From NCBI GenBank assembly GCA_017506865.1, contig JAFCMP010000212.1:496001-560000 (forward strand): a DNA stretch of 64,000 bases. The letters are read 5' to 3'. The position numbers and the translations under genes are program-made. The notes beneath the pieces were generated by a model. That model ran no database searches. It was not told the DNA's origin and saw only the letters and a program-made list of their open reading frames with translations. Below are positions 5,829-23,270 of the stretch, piece by piece. The stretch comes from Tribonema minus. Lineage: Eukaryota; Sar; Xanthophyceae; Tribonematales; Tribonemataceae. Within the stretch, counting starts at the first letter, position 1; each line of letters opens with the position of its first letter.

Positions 5829-6690
5829 TCGCACATCATTTCGGAGGCCGTACTCGTACAGGACGAGTACTCATACATAAATGCGCTACCGTACAAGTAA
5901 TGTCTCGTACTCGTCCATGTACGAGTATCACGAGTGCTTGTACGAGTACCACGACCGGAGCTTGGAGAGAGCGTTTCGCTGAGACCTCGCGCTACAGAAG
6001 CGGCTGCTCAGTGTGTGTCAATTGTTCGAAACATGAGCCGGTCGGGCGGAGGTCACGGTGGTACAGTGCTAGACTCATCTCCATAGGACTATTTAAAGGA
6101 CTACAGTAGCCTTGGACTATGCGCACATGCTTGGGGAATGAGAAAAGCCGCGCATCAAGGTTGAGGTACCAGCTGAGCATGACGACGTCTGTGGGTCTGT
6201 GCATGGCGACAGTACGCTGACGTGCTCTATCAGCAACCTCCTTCAAGGGAGTCAAGAGCATCAACGCCACAGTACTATGTGAGCATGTCCCACGCCGCGC
6301 GATCAATCGCTACGGCAGAACCCGCACCACCTTTCGCATAATCAAACATGAAGAGGCATTTACTCGTTGAAACACTCGTACTCGTACTCGTAGAACACTC
6401 GTACAGAGATACTCGTACTGTACGAGTACTCGTACATGATTTCGGAGACAGTACTCGTGCAGTACGAGTGCGCCCTGAGCGAGAATTAATAAAAAGTACT
6501 CGTACATGGATCTTAGGGCGGTACTCGTACAGGACGAGTACTCGTACATGATTTCGGAGGCCATACTCGTACAGGACGAGTACTCGTACATCATTTCAGA
6601 GGCAGTACTCGTACAGGACGAGTACTCGTGCACGATTGACATACCAGTACTCGTACAGTCCTCGTACTCTTTTACTCGTCTCGTCCCAAG
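5825..6690. repeat. GTACTCGTAC-rich minisatellite
   Basis: Units of roughly 40-45 bp built from GTACTCGTACAGGACGAG, TACTCGTACATGATTTCGG and AGGC are repeated imperfectly, most regularly from 6490 to 6680. Shorter blocks occur at 2625-2712, 3410-3505 and 5258-5300. The core GTACGAGTAC / GTACTCGTAC is an inverted repeat, so each unit can fold. Several blocks start directly after the AATAAAAAG tail of a LINE 3' end (3500, 5828, 6490), suggesting that the satellite is the tail of the element or grew from it. The plain tail sequence GAGCGAGAATTAATAAAAAG at 6478-6497, without coding sequence upstream, supports that link. The stretch 5960-6350 between blocks shows no gene. Confidence 0.75.
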
Positions 6691-7142: not shown

Positions 7143-7653
7143 TGTGGGGATCCTCGAGTGTGCATTTTGCTTGCAATGTTGAACTTCCCTGTCATTGAAT
7201 TTCTATGAGTTAGTTTAGCTGCCTTGCAGGGTGCTTGGCAGTTACACAGTTGTCAGCACTGCAGTGGCACTAACTGCTTCAAGCTGGTGCCTGTTGATTG
7301 CAAGAATTGGTGGGAAAGTTCTTCTTGCTTCAATAACTTCAAGGTTCAGAAGGCCGCCCTTAAGTATACCTTTTTGCAGTTGCCAATGGAATTGGTTTCA
7401 GTCTAGTGGCGCTGAGAGCATCTGGTGATTGGATACATAGTTTTGGGGTTGAAGACACTGTTGGCAACTTGAAGCTCTGCCTTCTGCTTTTGCTGCTTCA
7501 AGTTCAAGTTGGGGTGTCAGCATATGATAGCTCAGCAGTATACTAGTAGCCTACTGAGTAGTAGTTGGTGTCAGGCTTCAAGTTGATCAATTGATAGTAA
7601 CCTGGCTCAACTGCTGCTGCTGCAGGTTAACTGAAGGGAGGACAGGCTCTTTA
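7143..7653 (+). repeat. 5' LTR of the chromovirus
   Basis: It begins TGTGGGGA, as the downstream copy does, and matches it through TTAGTTTAGCTGCC, AAGAATTGGTGGGAAAG, GGATACATAGTTTTGGGG and CTCAACTGCTGCTGCTGCAG to GGCTCTTTA. It is about 125 bp longer than the 3' copy. The difference consists almost entirely of discrete short inserts of about 6-24 bp, many palindromic (near 7246, 7342, 7379, 7455, 7498, 7540 and 7580). Neither end could be fixed exactly: no clear CA terminus or target duplication was found, and no standard tRNA primer-binding site was recognised after 7653. Confidence 0.75.
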
Positions 7654-14159: not shown

Positions 14160-14830
14160 ACAACGACCCCCCAGCGGCATCAGTTCACCACAATGTCACT
14201 CACGCTGACCCCTTCATTTCAGCGTTGCATAGCGAGATTCACCTTGACCCTGCAGAGCGCAATCTCAACATCGCGCACGTGCAGGAGATGGAGGAATTGC
14301 GAGCGCTGCGCATAGGTGCAGCATCGCACCAACAGCGAGGACTACGGCCAGGCACCATCACGTGCTATGGCGGAGCCAAGATGCTGTTCGACTTCGTCGA
14401 CGACGCCCCGGCGGCAACTTCAGAAATTCAACATCGCATACCACCTGAGATCTGCGGCAGCTCATACGACACTGGCTGCGGCGCATCGTGCGTCGATGGC
14501 GTGCTCGTGAAGCGGCTACTCGACGGCGGCTCCATGGACCTAGACTCCATACACATCATGGAGCACCCACGCATTCTGACAGGGTTCGACCTCGCCAAAG
14601 GAAGCACGCACGTCCACAAGACGGCCACGCTGAGCATCACCTTCCACACGGCAAGACCCCACGCACCAGTAAAGCTCACTTGGATTTTCCTGGTGGTGCC
14701 AAACCTGGGGGTACCCATGCTGCTGGGGGGCGACGTCATACACTCCACAACGTCGACCAGCGCCAAGAAGAACACGCCGGCACAGTGGACCTGCACTTCC
14801 TCGCGGGCCACAAGCCGATGGCGCTGGCGT
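14120..14830 (+). pseudogene. Retropepsin-like aspartic protease
   Basis: The frame opened at 14120 contains ICGSSYDTGCGASCVDGVLV, which carries the retropepsin active-site loop D-T-G followed by A-S. Between DTG and AS there are two extra residues, Cys-Gly (six bases), relative to the usual DTGAS order. About 80 residues later IFLVVPNLGVPMLLGGDVIH matches the second hydrophobic strand and the I/L-L-G-x-D segment that closes the retropepsin fold. The enzyme would cleave the Gag-Pol polyprotein. The frame is open through both motifs (to about 14830), then becomes noisy. With the inserted residues in the catalytic loop, activity is doubtful. Confidence 0.75.
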
Positions 14831-14910: not shown

Positions 14911-15210
14911 GTGGGTGGCGGTGGCGCGCGCACGGCGGACATAGGGGGCGACCGGCCGCGTTGGCCCGCGGTTAGCGTGCGTGTATGCCATGCTGATGGC
15001 GAGACGCCGGTGCGGTCCACGGACGCTAGCGCGCACGCGGGCATGCGCGTGGAGGTGCACGTGCGGCACCCCGAGCTGGCAGCGGATAGGCTGCTGGTGG
15101 AGTTCACGCCGGACGGTTCGGTGCCTGTGGTGCTGCAGTCTCTAGGGGGGGACGTGAGACTGCGGCCGGGCACGGGCCGTGGTGGGGCATGCCCTAGGCA
15201 TGCAGCCTGA
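14911..15210 (+). pseudogene. Protease-RT linker region of Pol
   Basis: An open frame of about 99 codons with alternating Val-rich strands (MRVEVHVRHPEL, RLLVEFTPDGSVPVVLQSL). In Ty3/gypsy elements a beta-rich segment of this kind normally follows the protease and leads directly into the reverse transcriptase. Here it is instead followed by the methyltransferase, which marks the likely insertion point of the captured gene. The frame ends at a TGA embedded in GCAGCCTGAGG at 15200-15211, one of the recurring micro-insert types. Confidence 0.5.
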
Positions 15211-15239
15211 GGAGACTCCGGCGGAGTAGCTCCCCTACG

Positions 15240-16201
15240 ATGCAGTCGGAACGGCAACCCATGCCTAGGCGCCTGCGCAAGCCCGTAGCAATGGAGATGT
15301 ACTGCGGAGCGGGGGGGTTCACGCACGGAGCCACGGAATTCTTAAACACAGCGCTGGCTACGGACTTCAGCCAGAGCGCGTGCGCACTCTGTGCGCGGAA
15401 TCACCCCAGGCAAGCGGGAGACACAGGAGGGCTGGCAATGCGTGCTCAGCATGCTGCTGGTGCACGCTGTGATTCCGTCGCTGCGCATGGCCGTTCTGGA
15501 GAACATTCTTGCGTTCATGTCCACGCCGCAGTGGCAGCACACGCTCGCTGCCCGCGCACGCGCTGGGCTTCAGCTTCCGAAGTCAGCCACCACGTCGTCA
15601 GGGGCGACGACTGCGGGCTACCCACTAAGCGGCGGCTCGTATTCCTAGTGTTCACGCGGGGGCGTCCGGCGGGCGGCGGGCTCGCGGAGGAGGACGTGGC
15701 AGACTGGGCGGGGGTTCATGCTCGCCGGCGGCTGCAGACGCTGCTCGCGGCCGAGAGGGGGGTGGAGAGGTCACCCGGTACTGCAGCGACGCGGAGGCGA
15801 CCGACGTTAGCGACAAGCAGGTGCCTTTCTACCGCTTCTGCACGCGCAACGTTGCGGCGCCGGAGCTGCTGTCCACGCGGCAGCCGTGCCCCACGCTGCG
15901 TAGCTTGTGTCTGCGGTTGCCGTACAGCGGCTCTGACGGCGGCAGCGGCATGCTGCGGCACAACGCGCGGAACGCAACAGAGCACCCCGCAGAAGTAGCA
16001 GCGGCGCGTCACCTCACGTGGCAGCAGCTACTGCAAGTTTGCACGTTCGAGGGCTACAACTGGCTGGAGCCAGCGCTGGGCGTGCGCAGCGACAACATGC
16101 GCATGCTCGCCAACACGGTGCCGCCGTGTATGCCGCGATATGTGTGGGAGGCTCTGTTTAGAGCGGGCGCACTGCACCTGGCGGGGAAGCAGCGCGCGTA
16201 G
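15240..16201 (+). pseudogene. C5 cytosine DNA methyltransferase domain within Pol
   Basis: Motifs occur in family order across three frames. Motif I: EMYCGAGGFTHG (15291-15326), the S-adenosylmethionine loop, with an Asp and NHP following. Motif VI: MAVLENILAF (15488-15517), the E-N-V/I element. Motif VIII: DCGLPTKRRLVFLVF (about 15608-15650). Target-recognition region: LLSTRQPCPTLRSL. Motif IX: RHLTWQQLLQV (about 16006-16038). Motif X: MLANTVPPCMPRYVWEALF (16103-16160), ending at a TAG at 16199. Motif IV with the catalytic Pro-Cys-Gln should lie between NHP (about 15405) and the start of motif VI, but the DNA there is only about 90 bp and has no PCQ in any frame, so that segment seems deleted. 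Frame changes near 15410, 15590 and 15770. The family transfers methyl groups to C5 of cytosine. Retrotransposon-encoded homologues are known in dinoflagellates and charophytes. Confidence 0.85.
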
Positions 16202-16966
16202 GGGGGCGCTGCAGCTGAGCAGCTCAGCGAAGGGGAGGTTCTTGACGCGCTGGCGGCGTGCGTGGAGCCGGTGGCGGTGCGGCAGGCGCAGCTGCGCCGC
16301 CGCGAGACGCGCAGCCCCTGGCGGGTTGAGGCTAGCGCCATGGTGGACCGCGCACTGGCGGCGCTGGCAGCGGCGGACAAGGAGATGTACACTGCGTACA
16401 GGGCGGCTTGGCGGGAGCCGCTCATTGGTGCGGAGGAGCACTACTGCATGTGCAGCGCGGAGGGCGTGGCGCGGCATGGCACTGAGGTGGGCGCCTTGGC
16501 GCCCACTCTTCAGCTCACGCGCCATATAGCGGATAGGCGAGAGGTTGATCTACGGGTGGCCGGCAGCGCGTCAACCCCCTACAACGGCGGCTTCTGCGAC
16601 ATCATGCACAGGGGGCTCACACATGTGCGCGCGGCGCACTCTGAGTGGAGCAAGGTGGGCTCTGTGGGCGCAGGGGGCCCCGGGGACCTTGCGTACATAA
16701 TGGAGCGCTGCATCAAGATGTGGCATCGCGACGTCGCGCACGATGCGCGCGCGGGCGCGCGCGACGCTGCCGCTGCTGCCGCTGCTGCTGCGGAGGCACT
16801 CGGCGGCGGCGCAATCGCTGCCACTGAGGGCAGCGGCAGCGGCGGCGCGCACGACGCGCGCGCGGGCGCGCGCAACGCTTCCGCTGCTGCCGCTGCTGCC
16901 GCTGCTGCCGCTGCTGCCGCCGCTGCCACTGACGTCGCGGCGCGGCGTGCCGCTTCTGCGGCGTAG
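16202..16966 (+). pseudogene. Unknown Pol domain between methyltransferase and RT
   Basis: The same frame as the methyltransferase C-terminus continues past the TAG at 16199 for about 250 codons. A leading helix (LSEGEVLDALAACVE), a basic-acidic segment with ASAMVDRALAALAAADKEMY, then EEHYCMCSAEGVARHG, STPYNGGFCDIMHRGLTHV and LAYIMERCIKMWHRD look like a folded, Cys/His-containing module. It then dissolves into Ala repeats. I recognise no family. It could be a C-terminal extension that came with the methyltransferase, an RT-thumb-independent tether, or a second captured domain. One open frame of 234 codons from 16262 makes it the least damaged part of this region. Confidence 0.5.
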
Positions 16967-17378
16967 CACTGCAGCGCCGCCGGGCAGTACGGCGCCGCGT
17001 CGGTGGCTGGACGCGGGAGCGCTGCAGCCGCCGCTGCGCAGCGCGGCGCGCACGTCACCGCTGAGCACTCAGGCTGCAGCGCCGCCAAGCAGCGCGGCGC
17101 CGCGGCAGCGGCTGGATGCGGGAGCGCTGCTGCCCGACGCGGCGCGGGCGTCACCGCTGAGCACTGCAGCGCCGCTGAGTAGCGCGGCGCCGAGGCGGCG
17201 GCCGAACGCGGGAGCGCTGCTGCTGCCGCTGCGCGGCGCTGCACGGCCGTCGCCGCTGAGCACTGCAGCACCGCCGGGCAGCACGGCGCTGCAGCGGCGG
17301 CTGAACAACTTGAAGGGAGCGCTGCTGCCACCGCCGCGCGGCGCAGCGCGAGCGCCGCCGCCGCCGCCTAGCCCTTGG
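16740..17378 (+). repeat. Ala-rich GC-trinucleotide repeat tract inside pol
   Basis: CGACGCTGCCGCTGCTGCC-like blocks encode poly-Ala, punctuated by DARAGARD/N motifs at 16742-16880. From 16960 on, imperfect units of about 100-110 bp contain CACTGCAGCGCCGCCGGGCAG, a GCGGCGGCTG stretch and GGGAGCGCTGC. Long frames exist on both strands for this reason. The tract lies between the unknown domain and the RT and probably grew by replication slippage or unequal exchange. It would encode a flexible linker. Confidence 0.7.
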
Positions 17379-18493
17379 CGTTGAGATTGACAGCACGGAG
17401 CGGCAGGCGGCAACGCTGCTGCACGTGGGGGCGTTCGTGGGGCTGTTTGACAGCATCACGGCGCCAGCGGAGAAGCTCGAGGCTCCGCTTGGCGAGGCAG
17501 CCTGAGTCAGCAGCGACCCGGCGGTCGCGGCGGTGCTGGCGACGGCGCGGGAGGAGCTCGCACCACACCTGCTCGAGGTGAACGTGCAGATAGAGGGGTG
17601 GTCGGCTGACCAGGTGGCGCAGCTGGTGTTTGAGCTTGCGCTCTTCAAGTTCACCAACGACTTCTCAAAGGACAAATGGCCCCGGGACTTGGGGTACTGC
17701 ACCACGCTGCCTTTCCGCATCGCGCTGCACGACGGCGCGCATCCGGAGTCCCGTGGCGGACCGGCCGTACTGATACAGCCCGCAGATGACAGCGCTCATC
17801 CGTGTGGAGGTGCCACGGTGGACAAACTGCTGGCGGCGGGCATCATACGCCCTTTGCAGTCGGAGTGGAGCTCGCCCGCGGTGGGCGTGATGAAGCCTGA
17901 CGGCTCGGCGCGCATCACGGTCAACTACAGGAAGCTCAAAGCCATGTTATTGAGCATTATTCCCAAGGTGCCTCTGCCCATGACAGAGGACATCTTCAAC
18001 GCTCTTGGCGACGCGCGGCTCTACCTTGGCATTGACATCAGCGGCGCATTCTTCGTGTCGGCGATTGACGCGGCAGCGGTGCCGCTCACCGCTATGGCCA
18101 TGTCATTCGGCTTGTACGAGTTGACGCACTGCCCGCAGGGCGCGGCCTGCGCACCTGGCCACTTCACGCGGCTGATGGAGATCGTGCTGCAGCTGCCTAG
18201 GGCATTGAGCGCGCGCAGTCACTCATTCAATTGACGACGTGATCGTGCACTCACCGGACGTTGACACGCACCTTGACGACCTACACGCGCTCATGCTGCG
18301 CAGGCAGGAGCACGGCATCAAGCTGGCGCCAGCGAAGATGCACGTCAACTGCACGCGCATCAAGTTCCTGGGGCACGTAGTTGAAGTTGGCGGCATCCGA
18401 CCTAACCCTGCCAAGGTCACTGCGCTTATGCAGATGCCGGTGCCGGAGGACATCAGATTCTCCGCCCTGCGCAGCTGGCTGGGGCTGGCGAAC
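17379..18493 (+). pseudogene. Reverse transcriptase (Ty3/gypsy)
   Basis: The frame with first base 17533 contains the upstream FVGLFDSITAPAEKLEAPLG (interrupted by a TGA in a CAGCCTGAG block at 17500-17508), then LLAAGIIRPLQSEWSSPAVG, SARITVNYRKLKAM, the catalytic strand LYLGIDISGAFF (Asp at 18034-18036), FGLYELTHCPQGAACAPGHF and FTRLMEIVL. The frame then shifts by one near 18210-18228, and the I-D-D box (Asp codons at 18233 and 18236) followed by VIVHS lies in the next frame, which continues through GIKLAPAKMHVNCTRIKFLG to RSWLGLAN at 18493. All three catalytic Asp codons are therefore present, but the protein is interrupted. Motif order and the LGLANYY end are typical of gypsy RTs. Confidence 0.88.
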
Positions 18494-18499
18494 TAGTAG

Positions 18500-19090
18500 T
18501 ACTACAGGCAATGTGTCCGGGAGATGGCGGAGGTTATAGCGCCTTTGACGGCGCTGATGGCAAAAGACGTACCCTTCCATATGGGGGAGGCGCAGCTGGC
18601 GGCGCTGGAGGAGGTCAGCACGGCGCTGTCGCTACACGCGCTGATGACCTTTCTGGACCATGCGGCTGCTGGGGACGGCACGCAGCCGTTCATCCTAGTC
18701 ACGGACGCGTCGAAGCTTGGCTTTGGCGCGGTGCTGTCGCAAGCAGACGCGGCGGGAGTGGAGCACCCCATTGCGTTCAGCAGCCGCGCGGCGTTAAAGC
18801 ACCAACAGAATTGGATCACCACGGACCTGGAGGCAGTCGGGGTGGTGTTTGGGGTCAAGAAGTTTTGGCACCTGCTTTGGGGCACGCCATTCATCATTGA
18901 CACCGACCACCGCGCGCTCTTGTGGCTCGAGAGCTGCAGAGACAAGACGGTGCGGCTGGCGCGATCATTTGAGTTTTTGAGGGCATTTCCCCATACCGTA
19001 TATGGTATAACGTGGGCACGCGGAACGGCAACGCGGACGGCTTTAGCCACAACCCCGGGTTCCATACTGGCAACGGCAGTAGTTGCCGCA
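18500..19090 (+). pseudogene. RNase H domain of Pol
   Basis: After two TAG codons at 18494-18499 the RT frame resumes with YYRQCVREMAEVIAPLTALM, the usual tether. RNase H follows: FILVTDASKLGFGAVLSQ (first catalytic Asp), ITTDLEAVGVVFGVKKFWH (Glu) and FIIDTDHRALLWL (Asp). The closing G-x-x-N-x-x-A-D motif (GTRNGNADGFSHNPG) is present but in a different frame, from about 19012, so a small indel lies near 19005. The enzyme would degrade the RNA strand of the RNA-DNA hybrid during reverse transcription. Confidence 0.85.
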
Positions 19091-20643
19091 GCAGAGTCTC
19101 GGAGGAGGTGGCTGATGAGCCGGTTGAGGCGTACCGCGTGGCCGACGCCGCGGCGGCAGCGCCGGGGTCCTCTGATCGCGCGGCGCGCGTCGCTGCAGCG
19201 ATGATCTAAGACTTGTGCACGCGCATTCATTGTGCGCTGGAGGCCGTCGGGGAGGGCGACGGCGATAGCCCACACGGGGGCGGGGGCCGCTCTGGGGCGA
19301 TTCAATCAATTTGGTCTTGGGCGGACGCGCGTTCAGCGGGCGCAGGCGCTACGCATGTCCACATGATGGAGCTTGGGCGCACGTGCGCAGCGTCGCGCGC
19401 AGCCTCACAGGCGGCTGCGGCGACAGCCGCTGCGGCGCAAGCTGCGCCGCCGGAGCGTGGCGGGGCGGAGGGCAGCGGTGCGGCGACGGCGTGCAGCAGC
19501 GCCGCTGCTGCTGCCGTAACTGGGCGCAGCGGCGCGGCGGTGGCATGCGGCAGCAATGTCGCTGCTGCCGCTGCTGCTGTTGCAGCCGCTGACCGCAGCG
19601 GCGCGGCGACGGCGCGCAGCAGCAACGCTGCTGCTGCTGCCGTCGCTGGGCGCAGCGGCGCGGCGGCTGCGCGCGGCCGCGATGCTGCTGCTGCTGCCGC
19701 TGCTGCTGCTGGACGCAGTGGTGCTGCTGCTGAGCGGCGCAGCACTGGAGCTGCTGCTGGCGGTGATCACAGCGGCGCGGTGGGCAGCAGCAGGGCTGCG
19801 GCAGGCCGCGGCGCAGCGGGCGCCGCGGCGGTGAGGAGCGACGCGCCGGGCGCGGAGCACGGTTATGGGACCAGCCTGAGAATGGGTGGGCGGAGCGGCG
19901 CTGCTGGGGCAGCGCCACTGCCCGTCACTGATACAACAGCGGTTCAAGTTGCGGGGCAAAGCTCGATCGCGGGGGCGTGGGGACTGCTGCCGCCGTCGGG
20001 CGCCGCAGCGCCGCCACTGCGGCTGAACGCGGCGCTGCTGCGGCGGCATGGCGCAGCAGCGCTGCTGCCGCTGCCGAGCAGCACGGCGTGGCCGCCACCA
20101 CGGATTATGACGGTGCTGCTGCGAGGAGCGCGCGCGGCGCCGCGGCAACAGGGCGCACAGTGACTGCAGCAGCGCTGCTGTCGCTGCCAAGCAGCGCGGC
20201 GCCGCCGCCACCGCTGATTACGGCGGTGCTGCTGCGAGGGGCGCGCGCGGCGCAGGGGAGGCGGCTCCTTCTCCGTCACAGCAGGGGGGTTTTAGGGGGG
20301 CGTGCGGCGCGGAGGAAGCGGCTCCTTCGCCAACACAGCGACCGCCTGCACTGTAGCCATCAAGCTTGAGCGCTGGCGACGCTGCCGCGGTGGCCGCCAA
20401 GGTGGCTGCGGCGGGCGTCGCGGCCACGCATAGGCGCGCCGCTGATCAGTCAGCACTGCAGGTGCCGACGCGATGCTGAGCGGTGACTTCCGCACGCTCG
20501 GCGCCATGGCAGCCGCTGCGGCAGACTGATGCGCAGGCCAGGACGCAGACCCGTTCTGCAGCGCCATAATCTCCAACAGTTACTGCGGCGACTCTACTGT
20601 TTTTCCCCAGCGACAAGGAGCTGCTAGCTCTTGTCCGAAAGCA
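19091..20643 (+). repeat. Ala-rich spacer between RNase H and integrase
   Basis: About 1.5 kb of GCTGCTGCC and CGCAGCGGCGCGGCG repeats. One plus frame (19213-20163) runs 316 codons with a recurring GRSGAA..AAAAA pattern every 17-20 residues from about 19510 to 19740. A second repetitive block (20010-20260) contains GCGGTGCTGCTGCGAGG twice. Minus-strand frames are long as well, as expected of trinucleotide-repeat DNA. In canonical gypsy Pol, RNase H is followed closely by the integrase zinc-binding domain, so this tract is an expansion particular to this element or copy. Confidence 0.6.
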
Positions 20644-21745
20644 TGGAGAGGCGTGCTGCATGGAGTGGGGTGGGGGGGCGAGGCTACTATGCCGGCGCAA
20701 ATGCGGGCCTGACGGCGAGCTCCGCGGCGCTGTGCTGGTCATACCGCTCGCGCTGCGCGACAAAGTGCTCCACTGCTTGCACGGGGTTGTGTGGGCGGGG
20801 CACCACGGGGTCAGGCGGGTCATGGAGCTGGTACAGCGCCATGCGTGGTGGCCAGTGTGGAGCGTCTCAGTCACTCACTGGGTTGAGCACTGCTGGCCGT
20901 GCCAGGCTCGCAAAGGGAGCGGCAAGCGTGCGCGCATGCCCACCATCTACAGAGAGCTACCGCCGTACCCCTTCCACACAGTGTCGACGGACTGCTTCGG
21001 GCCACTGCCAGTTTCGGCCAGCAGCAACATGTACGTGCACGTGCTCATGTGCCTGCTGACGTCACACGTCGCAGTGTACGCAGTGCGCGAGGGGGAGAAC
21101 ACGGCGGTGAGGGCGGCCGAGCTGCTGGTGGACAAGTACAGCACGCTTTACGGCATGCCCCACACACTGTTCAGTGACGGGGGGTCGAAGTACACGGCGG
21201 AGGTGGGGCGCGAGGTGTACGCACTCCTGGGGGTGAGGAAGCTTTACACCACGGCGTACCACCCACAGGCGAACGGCCAGGCGGAGCACTTCATGAAGTC
21301 GCTCGCGCAGATGCTGGCGAAGGCGGTGAGCAGCCCTCAGAGCGACTGGGATCGGTGGATCAACCACGTCGCCTTCGCGCACAACTCGCATTCAAACTGC
21401 GAGCGCGGCTGCTTGCCGTTCTTGCTGGTGACTCATCGGATCATCGGGAGGGAGCCGCGGGTAGCGCTCTACACCATTTTGGGGCAGGTTGCTGAGGGGG
21501 AGGGACGGTGCGCTACCGACAGCACCTGTGCAATCCTCGCAGAGATGCGAGAGCGGCAGTCATCTGCCATGACGATGCTGCACACGCGCGCGAAGCTTAA
21601 GCGCGAGCGCATTATGCGCGGCAACGCGGCGCTGGCGCGTGCATTCAACTTGCGCAGCAAGCCGGAGCGGGCTGACCTTGTGTGGGCGCATTCCAAGCCC
21701 ATCATGCACACGGCGACTTCCAGCACGGAGCACGGCGACACGTGA
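20644..21745 (+). pseudogene. Integrase (zinc-binding and DDE core)
   Basis: The longest undisturbed Pol piece, 361 codons from 20660. The N-terminal HHCC domain is visible as GHHGVRRVMELVQRHAWWP followed by HWVEHCWPCQARK. The catalytic core has Asp at 20990-20992 (VSTDCFGPL), Asp at 21176-21178 (LFSDGGSKY) and Glu at 21284-21286 (NGQAEHFMKSLA); the second spacing is 35 residues, the classical D-X35-E. YHPQANGQAE is the conserved loop of Ty3/gypsy integrases. The enzyme would insert the cDNA into the genome. Intact catalytic residues contrast with the damage elsewhere. The frame closes at a TGA at about 21743, just before a CAGCCTGAG block. Confidence 0.92.
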
Positions 21746-22242
21746 CGCGCAGCCTGAGTGCTCAGCAGGAAGATGCTAGATCAAGACTGCAGTGGGTGGG
21801 GCCTTGCAGGGTTATAGCGGTGGGGCCAGTGTATCAAGGGGATATGCTGGTACAGTCAAACGTGGTGCTGCTGGAGATGGACTGCGGTCCAACTCGGGTC
21901 ACGATGTGGCACGTCAAGCTGTGTCGTGACCCTAGCGGAGTCAGCGGCAAACCCGTGAGGCTGCATGAGGGCTATGCGCGCTACTTGCTCAGCAGAAACC
22001 CGCTCGCGGCGCCGGCGCCGCGATCGGTCACGGAGGACGACGTCACGTGGGCTTCGGATCGGCATGGGGTAAAAGCGGTGATGGGGCACAGGGTTGTGCG
22101 CGACCGCAGGGGCAGGCCGGGGGAGTTACGGTATCTGGTGCGCTGGGAGGGCGCACACGTGGCAGGTACCTGGGAGGCAGCCAGCCTCCTCGACGCGTGG
22201 AGCATGCAACGACGGAGAACACGGCGAACGCTGCGGGCGTAG
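21746..22242 (+). pseudogene. Integrase C-terminus: GPY/F-like module and chromodomain
   Basis: Frame 21682-22242. LQWVGPCRVIAVGP and VTMWHVKLCRDP correspond to the GPY/F region that ends gypsy integrases. Near the end, RYLVRWEGAHVAGTWEAAS is a chromodomain core, with the Y-L-V-x-W-x-G and T-W-E signatures, followed by a helix (LLDAWSM) and a basic tail to the TAG at 22240. Chromodomains of chromoviruses bind modified histones and steer integration towards heterochromatin. The frame differs from that of the integrase core. The junction lies at GCGCAGCCTGAGTGCTCAG near 21750, a typical micro-insertion. Confidence 0.85.
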
Positions 22243-22884: not shown

Positions 22885-23270
22885 TGTGGGGAGTGTGCAC
22901 GTTCCCTGTCATTCTATGAGTTAGTTTAGCTGCCAGTGCCTGGCAGGGTGCTTGGCAGTTACACAGTTGTCAGCAGTAACTGCTTTGTGCCTGTTGTTTG
23001 CAAGAATTGGTGGGAAAGCTCTTCTTGCTTCCAGAAGGCCCTTAAGTAGCTTTTTGCAGTTGGAATTGGCTTCAGTCTAGTGGTGCTAGGAGTATCTGGT
23101 GCTTGGATACATAGTTTTGGGGTTAAAGACAAGCTCTGCCTTCTGCTTTTGCTGCTTGGGGTGTCAGCATACTGTTAGCTCAGCAGTAGTTAGTTGGTGT
23201 CCGACAGGCTTGATCAACCTGGCTCAACTGCTGCTGCTGCAGAACAACAGGAGGGAAGACTGGCTCTTTA
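22885..23270 (+). repeat. 3' LTR of the chromovirus
   Basis: It begins TGTGGGGAGTGTGCAC and shares the whole backbone with 7143-7653, ending at TGGCTCTTTA before the two sequences diverge. It is shorter and lacks most of the small palindromic inserts of the 5' copy, so it is probably closer to the ancestral LTR. One insert is private to this copy: CAGTGC within GCTGCCAGTGCCTGGCAG near 22933. Confidence 0.75.

Follow-up and report, generated by a model that had tools for sequence, protein, structure and literature searches.

We examined a 64,000-nucleotide stretch of the Tribonema minus genome (assembly GCA_017506865.1, contig JAFCMP010000212.1, positions 496,001 to 560,000; hereafter the window) and found that it holds a dead copy of a Ty3/gypsy long terminal repeat (LTR) retrotransposon with a C5 DNA cytosine methyltransferase (DNMT) as a regular domain of its pol gene. 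The domain is almost certainly a resident and once-functional part of the element. The phenomenon is far wider than the window alone shows. Across the genome, at least 325 distinct DNMT loci were found, 126 of them in frames of at least 2,000 amino acids and 222 in frames of at least 1,000, and intact relatives of the window element encode the DNMT together with reverse transcriptase (RT), RNase H, integrase, and chromodomain in a single open frame.

The DNMT domain in the window and in intact relatives

The decayed DNMT lies on the forward strand at positions 15270 to 16231 of the window and was delimited by tblastn with a relative on the same contig (C212:60029-61036, hereafter the C212:60k copy), which has a frame of 1,071 amino acids. 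The alignment (E value, 2.5e-101; 79% identity over the C-terminal half of the domain) settles the homology. The direct match to the DNA methylase profile, which a sequence-only reading of this stretch had proposed as a check, was weak: for the piece from 15198 to 15998, Pfam placed PF00145 second, below its cut-off and over motif I only (E, 0.092), behind a tRNA methyltransferase family (E, 0.021), and PF00145 was absent from the matches of both other window pieces. That reading had also placed motifs I, VI, VIII, IX, and X in order on the same strand, before the RT and inside the LTRs, and the coordinates on the forward strand confirm this: motif I, AMEMYCGAGGF (15288 to 15320, frame 3); motif VI, LENI, in MAVLENILAFMS (15487 to 15522, frame 1); motif VIII, TKRRLVF, in TKRRLVFLVFTRGR (15624 to 15665, frame 3); motif IX, PCPTLRS, in STRQPCPTLRSL (15872 to 15907, frame 2); and motif X, MLANTVPP, in NMRMLANTVPPCM (16094 to 16132, frame 2). 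Motif IV was missing from that list because DNMT residues ∼49 to 91 (∼43 amino acids, including its GGPPC) are deleted between positions 15404 and 15409. Several frame changes run across the domain.

The intact frame of the copy on C340 extends over 2,936 amino acids without a stop. It contains the DNMT at residues 867 to 1179 (profile positions 3 to 316 of 324; E, 2.6e-18), RT at 1753 to 1910, RNase H at 2006 to 2108, the H2C2 zinc-binding domain at 2282 to 2340, the integrase core (rve) at 2370 to 2456, and a chromodomain at the C terminus of the integrase (2724 to 2779; E, 1.1e-06; 28.9 bits, with a cut-off of 25.1). A protease, WDTGAS ... IIGRD, precedes the DNMT at residues ∼625 to 712; its Pfam match fell below the cut-off in C340 (E, 0.06), in the related copy C66 (E, 3e-5), and in every copy scanned, and no match was obtained for the C212:60k copy or for the protease stretch of the window. 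The C340 LTRs are ∼212 bp long and differ by one base and one gap, with a TGG-containing stretch resembling a primer site after the first and a purine run before the second. The Ty3/gypsy order of protease, RT, RNase H, H2C2, and rve within LTRs was found, and C340 carries at the integrase C terminus the chromodomain that characterizes chromoviruses. By its chromodomain the element is a putative chromovirus; a report on Ectocarpus describes Gypsy lineages with chromodomains outside the chromoviruses (PMC12477816).

The elements form two clades with different domain orders. In clade I, an N-terminal part (gag by position) is followed by protease, DNMT, RT, RNase H, integrase, and chromodomain, and motifs I, IV (PC), VI (ENV), VIII, IX, and X occur in order in the intact copies. 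In clade II (C89, C4, and C23), the order is N-terminal part, DNMT, protease, RT, and RNase H, with H2C2 and rve in C89 and C23; the C4 frame stops before the integrase. No chromodomain was detected in these three clade II copies. Examined for gag with Pfam, the frames on C340, C89, and C4 gave no match in their N-terminal parts, and a CCHC-like motif was seen in the copy on C75. Within clade I, RT identity to the C340 RT was ∼62 to 85%; within clade II, identity to the C89 RT was 59 to 60%; and between the clades it was ∼28 to 34%. The DNMT diverges in the same order, at lower identity. The DNMT thus follows the protease in one Ty3/gypsy clade of this genome and precedes it in the other, which makes two captures possible: the domain was either caught twice or moved. 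Two irregular arrangements were also recorded. A second partial copy of the element, at G000:C340 14710-19323, starts 762 bp past the 3' LTR with AGTATCA at both junctions and is either a tandem duplication or an assembly effect, and on G000:C311 an open frame of 6,208 amino acids, twice the usual length, has both a DNMT and an RT match.

The window element has the clade I arrangement over a length of ∼16 kb, all on the forward strand. The recognizable parts of its LTRs, at 7185 to 7653 (5') and 22902 to 23270 (3'), align with 337 identical positions in 477 columns; the 361 aligned bases include 24 mismatches and gaps take up 116 columns, so the element is probably not young. A search by eye found no clean target-site duplication. 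Inside the LTRs lie a relic of the aspartic protease (SYDTGCGAS ... PMLLGGDVIHS, 14462 to 14746), recognized by motifs that recur in the relatives; the RT in two frames (17890 to 18379; RVT_1 E, 8.5e-08 and 4.3e-04, the latter below the cut-off); RNase H (18680 to 18988; RT_RNaseH E, 2.2e-29); the integrase with H2C2 and core (20741 to 21265; H2C2 E, 3.2e-13; rve E, 5.5e-05, below the cut-off); and, C-terminal to it, a chromodomain at ∼22069 to 22200 with the motif ELRYLVRWEG...TWEAASLL (Chromo E, 3.2e-04; 21 bits against a cut-off of 25.1). The proposal of a chromodomain-bearing Ty3/gypsy carrier with the DNMT ahead of the RT therefore holds for the window and for its intact relatives, which share this arrangement. 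Low-complexity, GC-rich repeats with an alanine-rich translation occupy 16728 to 17306, between DNMT and RT, and 19472 to 20264, between RNase H and integrase. Direct repeats of GTACTCGTAC-rich units stand immediately 5' of the element (6384 to 6665), and tRNA and Rfam scans of the window returned nothing.

Abundance, linkage, and selection

The genome searched comprises 158,181,000 bases in 554 contigs. DNMT loci came from five genome searches with the family or with DNMT proteins, merged by script. Because a search scores its best candidates alone, every count for the genome is a minimum. At 196 of the 325 DNMT loci, a same-strand RT was listed within the 8 kb downstream, and no locus had an RT upstream alone. 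DNMT and RT were in the same frame, defined as frames of identical listed length, at 125 loci, with 96 of these frames reaching at least 2,000 amino acids. RT plus chromodomain lay downstream at 52 DNMT loci, and all three shared one frame in 21. As a strand control, an earlier set of 234 DNMT loci had a same-strand RT downstream in 135 cases and an opposite-strand RT within 8 kb in 6.

We also counted from the side of the RT, using the best 150 of 1,416 PF00078 candidates. Among these 150, a DNMT was upstream of 124, the remaining 26 being in frames shorter than 2,000 amino acids, and every one of the 77 matches in frames of at least 2,000 amino acids had a same-strand DNMT upstream. From a separate list of 150 rows, 85 were used as the window clade; rows below 44% identity were dropped, as were small fragments into which one element had been split, and a few of the low-identity rows were re-added as RT partners in the locus counts. 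The sequence-only reading had named copies lacking the DNMT segment, with intact DNA on either side, as a sign that a fragment of a host gene was inserted once. A same-strand DNMT is listed upstream in 70 of the 85 window-clade rows and none is listed for the other 15, some of which may be truly DNMT-free copies. The multi-copy elements with the same domain order that it had suggested looking for are present as many copies and families, intact frames included. Copia elements of the same genome served as a control: of 82 matches, 59 were checked, none shared a frame with a DNMT, and 2 had a DNMT within 8 kb. A single insertion of a host gene into one element, for which the only argument is that the window copy on its own matches the DNMT profile weakly, can be dismissed for practical purposes, since the domain occupies the same position in numerous copies and families.

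Selection on the domain was assessed from the ratio of nonsynonymous to synonymous substitution rates (dN/dS) in 33 pairs, 19 for the DNMT and 14 for the RT. The DNMT gave 0.084 to 0.259 in eight comparisons between diverged copies or families; these include two within-family pairs (C212_60k/C75 and C89/C13), and several have dS values above 1, which makes the values rough. The RT gave 0.046 to 0.168 in six family-level pairs. Among the other DNMT pairs, C312 versus C212_394 gave 0.254, three were saturated and yielded no value, and two with high dS gave 0.58 (C340 versus C212_60k) and 0.36 (C89 versus C204). Near-identical or decaying DNMT copies gave 0.43, 0.59, 0.99, 1.19, and one undefined value; of the other RT pairs, three were saturated and five near-identical ones gave 0.58 to 1.83. 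Such a rise toward 1 in near-identical copies, in DNMT and RT alike, is expected after insertion. The ratios between diverged copies show selection on the domain in the pairs measured; the enzyme is kept, less strictly than the RT. The domain is multi-copy, lies in the frame of the element, and has dN/dS values below 1 between diverged copies, as is characteristic of a retrotransposon-encoded DNMT.

Kinship and proposed role of the enzyme

A profile search of the PDB (48 sequences) listed, at an E value of ≤1e-3, DNMT2, DNMT1, related plant and fungal enzymes, and bacterial enzymes; for both clade profiles, DNMT2 scored highest among the solved relatives. No listed entry was named DNMT3, and DNMT3 was not among the 50 Foldseek rows shown or in VIA-align, which does not amount to exclusion. 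The C5-methyltransferase fold is present in a close relative. The enzyme thus appears to stand near the bacterial, DNMT1, and DNMT2 enzymes, with no sign of Dnmt3 kinship among these matches. In a tree of 50 DNMTs, support was 100/100 for clade I, 100/97 for clade II, and 99/94 for clade II with a third group. The node uniting all retrotransposon DNMTs had modest support (87/62) and also contained the protein P0124; a constraint placing 17 retrotransposon and contig rows in one clade was not rejected (p-AU, 0.197). P0124, a DNMT of 527 amino acids on an lgn/ena contig of 14 kb, is perhaps a host source or another element.

Proteins related to the clades were found in jgi/ena contigs, which are probably metagenomes, when isolated-domain alignments were searched against a set of 5.8 billion proteins (P0001 to P0007, E values of 3e-149 to 2e-58; P0121 to P0123, 5e-119 to 9e-59). 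Because proteins of both clades occur in these contigs, such elements probably live in other genomes too. With the whole 2,936-amino-acid frame as the query, the same set gave nothing for the DNMT part at an E value of ≤0.001. In viral contigs, 51 stretches fit a pattern and none encoded a relative. The proteins P0125, P0126, P0129, and P0132, weak matches to the clade II profile, are DNMTs fused to MerR-type DNA-binding domains.

The genome contains other DNMTs as well. L001, L002, and L003 (G000:C223, C181) are single-frame DNMTs of 367 to 390 amino acids with the top PF00145 scores of the genome search; they form their own branch of the DNMT tree, near long branches, with no listed RT downstream. 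L001 and L002 represent two kinds of short HhaI-like DNMT, and the closest solved relative of L002 is M.HhaI. A DNMT2 exon of the host genome is at L004. Genome searches for SRA and DNMT1-RFD gave no match, and no control genome gave one either, so that their absence is not shown. A decayed rbcL fragment (L073:1480-1668, G000:C334) lies between apparent exons of a gene that we take to be phosphatase-like. It scored 95 to 100 bits against nine Rubisco large chains, 81 bits against two more, and no higher than 67 bits against the rest of those shown; we take the nine to be diatom and red-algal and assume that plant and green-algal chains are among those with the lowest scores. The fragment is a nuclear insertion of plastid DNA and suggests a red-type plastid in the host, which points to neither a charophyte nor a dinoflagellate; a green-algal host, at first suspected because of the G+C content, was set aside on account of these scores.

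Taken as a whole, the reading that we favor, and consider probable, is a pol-resident DNMT that acts on the cDNA of the element or on the new copy and its surroundings. That the enzyme is active on DNA during retrotransposition seems likewise probable. Self-methylation is the likeliest selected role, although we put it forward only tentatively. The DNMT would be packaged together with RT and integrase, freed by the protease of the element, and would then methylate the element cDNA or the freshly inserted copy along with the DNA around it; in clade I, the chromodomain would steer the integrase toward marked chromatin. A methylated arrival would resemble silent resident DNA, with the result that the host would tolerate copies and the element would avoid harm.

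Several observations weigh against this proposal. The window DNMT itself is a dead pseudogene that cannot be active, because motif IV is lost and the frame is shifted, and the dN of the DNMT was 2.2 to 5.6 times that of the RT in the seven family-level pairs computed for both. No clear CpG depletion was seen in the elements relative to comparison DNA: observed/expected ratios were 0.91 to 1.11 in clade I and 0.79 to 0.82 in clade II, with 0.70 and 0.80 in other DNA of the window and 1.00 to 1.16 at four other loci. An excess of C-to-T singletons at CpG was found in one family (11/691 versus 4/1,447 sites; p, 0.0013), was weak in two window-clade sets (p, 0.012 and 0.055), and was absent in the C89 family (p, 0.53); this test covered DNMT-bearing families only. 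Three copies (L039, L065, and L021) each supply most of the singletons of one of three sets, probably as a result of ragged ends or greater age, and were kept in. Under a different filter, the CpG ratios were 1.11 for the C340 family, 1.48 for C89, 5.75 for C66, and 3.31 for the window-clade RT. The CpG evidence for self-methylation is thus mixed; the enzyme may have a target other than CpG, or the mark may be brief.

The enzyme could instead be aimed at the host or at competitors rather than at the cDNA of the element. As an epigenetic weapon or a defense against viruses, it would then methylate host chromatin where the element integrates, or methylate other elements. Recruitment by the chromodomain would put it on host chromatin, clade II elements retain the DNMT with no detected chromodomain, and an anti-viral role has been proposed for accessory domains of retrotransposons (PMC6338049); however, clade I shows about the same conservation in its target-recognition stretch as elsewhere in the domain, with no diversification there, and we regard this target as possible but rather unlikely. 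We give less credit to a DNMT2-like enzyme that methylates RNA, either element RNA or the primer tRNA, and so aids packaging or reverse transcription. Such a role would fit the top rank of DNMT2 among the solved relatives of both clade profiles, and methylation of RNA was raised for SymbioLINE by de Mendoza et al. (PMC5890265). The fold and profile also match DNA enzymes, however, and the DNMT2 exon of the host itself takes a different position in the tree.

The domain might also be a passive passenger, caught once, needless now, and carried along by copying. The dN/dS values near 1 in near-identical recent copies of DNMT and RT are what such a passenger would show, but the values between diverged copies are well below 1, the catalytic residues are kept, and none of the 77 long RT frames among the best 150 candidates is free of a DNMT. 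A passenger appears unlikely given the dN/dS results, and we give it little credit.

Significance and comparison with known systems

Hosts routinely use cytosine methylation to defend themselves against retrotransposons, and here parasitic elements encode the mark-writing enzyme of their own silencer. Why they do so has become testable: intact frames are available, the Copia elements of this nucleus, apparently without DNMT, can serve as a control, and relatives in other contigs point to other hosts. A bolder proposal, which we consider doubtful, is that the DNMT is a standard and ancient pol domain of the whole Ty3/gypsy population and that cytosine methylation in this genome stems mainly from these elements. 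If it were true, parasites would carry a self-contained system that writes and reads chromatin through DNMT and chromodomain, and the DNMT would be as regular a domain as RNase H, perhaps captured or moved more than once.

Retrotransposon DNMTs were already known in dinoflagellates and charophyte algae, as the sequence-only reading had stated: one paper documents them in DIRS and LINE elements of dinoflagellates and in the Gypsy element of a charophyte (PMC5890265), and a 2025 study repeats those cases and mentions Copia and DIRS elements (PMC12344493). KnitGypsy-Dnmt3 of Klebsormidium nitens (PMC5890265) resembles the elements described here: it is a multi-copy, intronless LTR Gypsy element whose Pol frame includes a DNMT and which is under purifying selection. 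It differs in being Dnmt3-related, in its charophyte host, and in a DIRS-like repeat arrangement, and its description in the sections consulted names no chromodomain; in Tribonema, no DNMT3 is listed among the solved relatives, a red-type plastid relic is present, the LTRs of an intact copy are plain and ∼212 bp long, a chromodomain is present in one clade, and the domains occur in two orders. Symbiodinium, with SymbioDIRS-Dnmt3 and SymbioLINE-Dnmt, likewise has hundreds of retrotransposon DNMTs and, for SymbioDIRS-Dnmt3, two domain orders within one genome (PMC5890265), but its carriers are DIRS elements with a tyrosine recombinase and LINEs, whereas those examined here are Ty3/gypsy elements with an rve integrase.

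The bacterial enzymes M.HaeIII and M.HhaI and the prophage enzyme 3g7u share the C5-methyltransferase motifs and fold; they are free-standing, whereas the enzyme in Tribonema is a domain of a retrotransposon polyprotein and is ∼20% identical to them. Ectocarpus is a brown alga with a red-type plastid. Some of its Gypsy lineages, like clade I in Tribonema, have a chromatin-reader domain after the integrase; the account of them, in the parts consulted, mentions no DNMT in Gypsy and places a DNA methyltransferase of predicted N4/N6 type in a Sola1 family (PMC12477816). Among the open-access titles and abstracts listed, with subscription papers and preprints outside that scope, none reported a DNMT in a Ty3/gypsy element of an alga with a red-type plastid or in one with a chromodomain. 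The DNMT-bearing Ty3/gypsy elements of Tribonema minus are a new and very expanded form of a known phenomenon. They extend the known cases to a host with a red-type plastid relic and to an enzyme that appears unlike Dnmt3; the loci number in the hundreds, the domains are arranged in two orders, and one polyprotein can combine a chromodomain with the DNMT.
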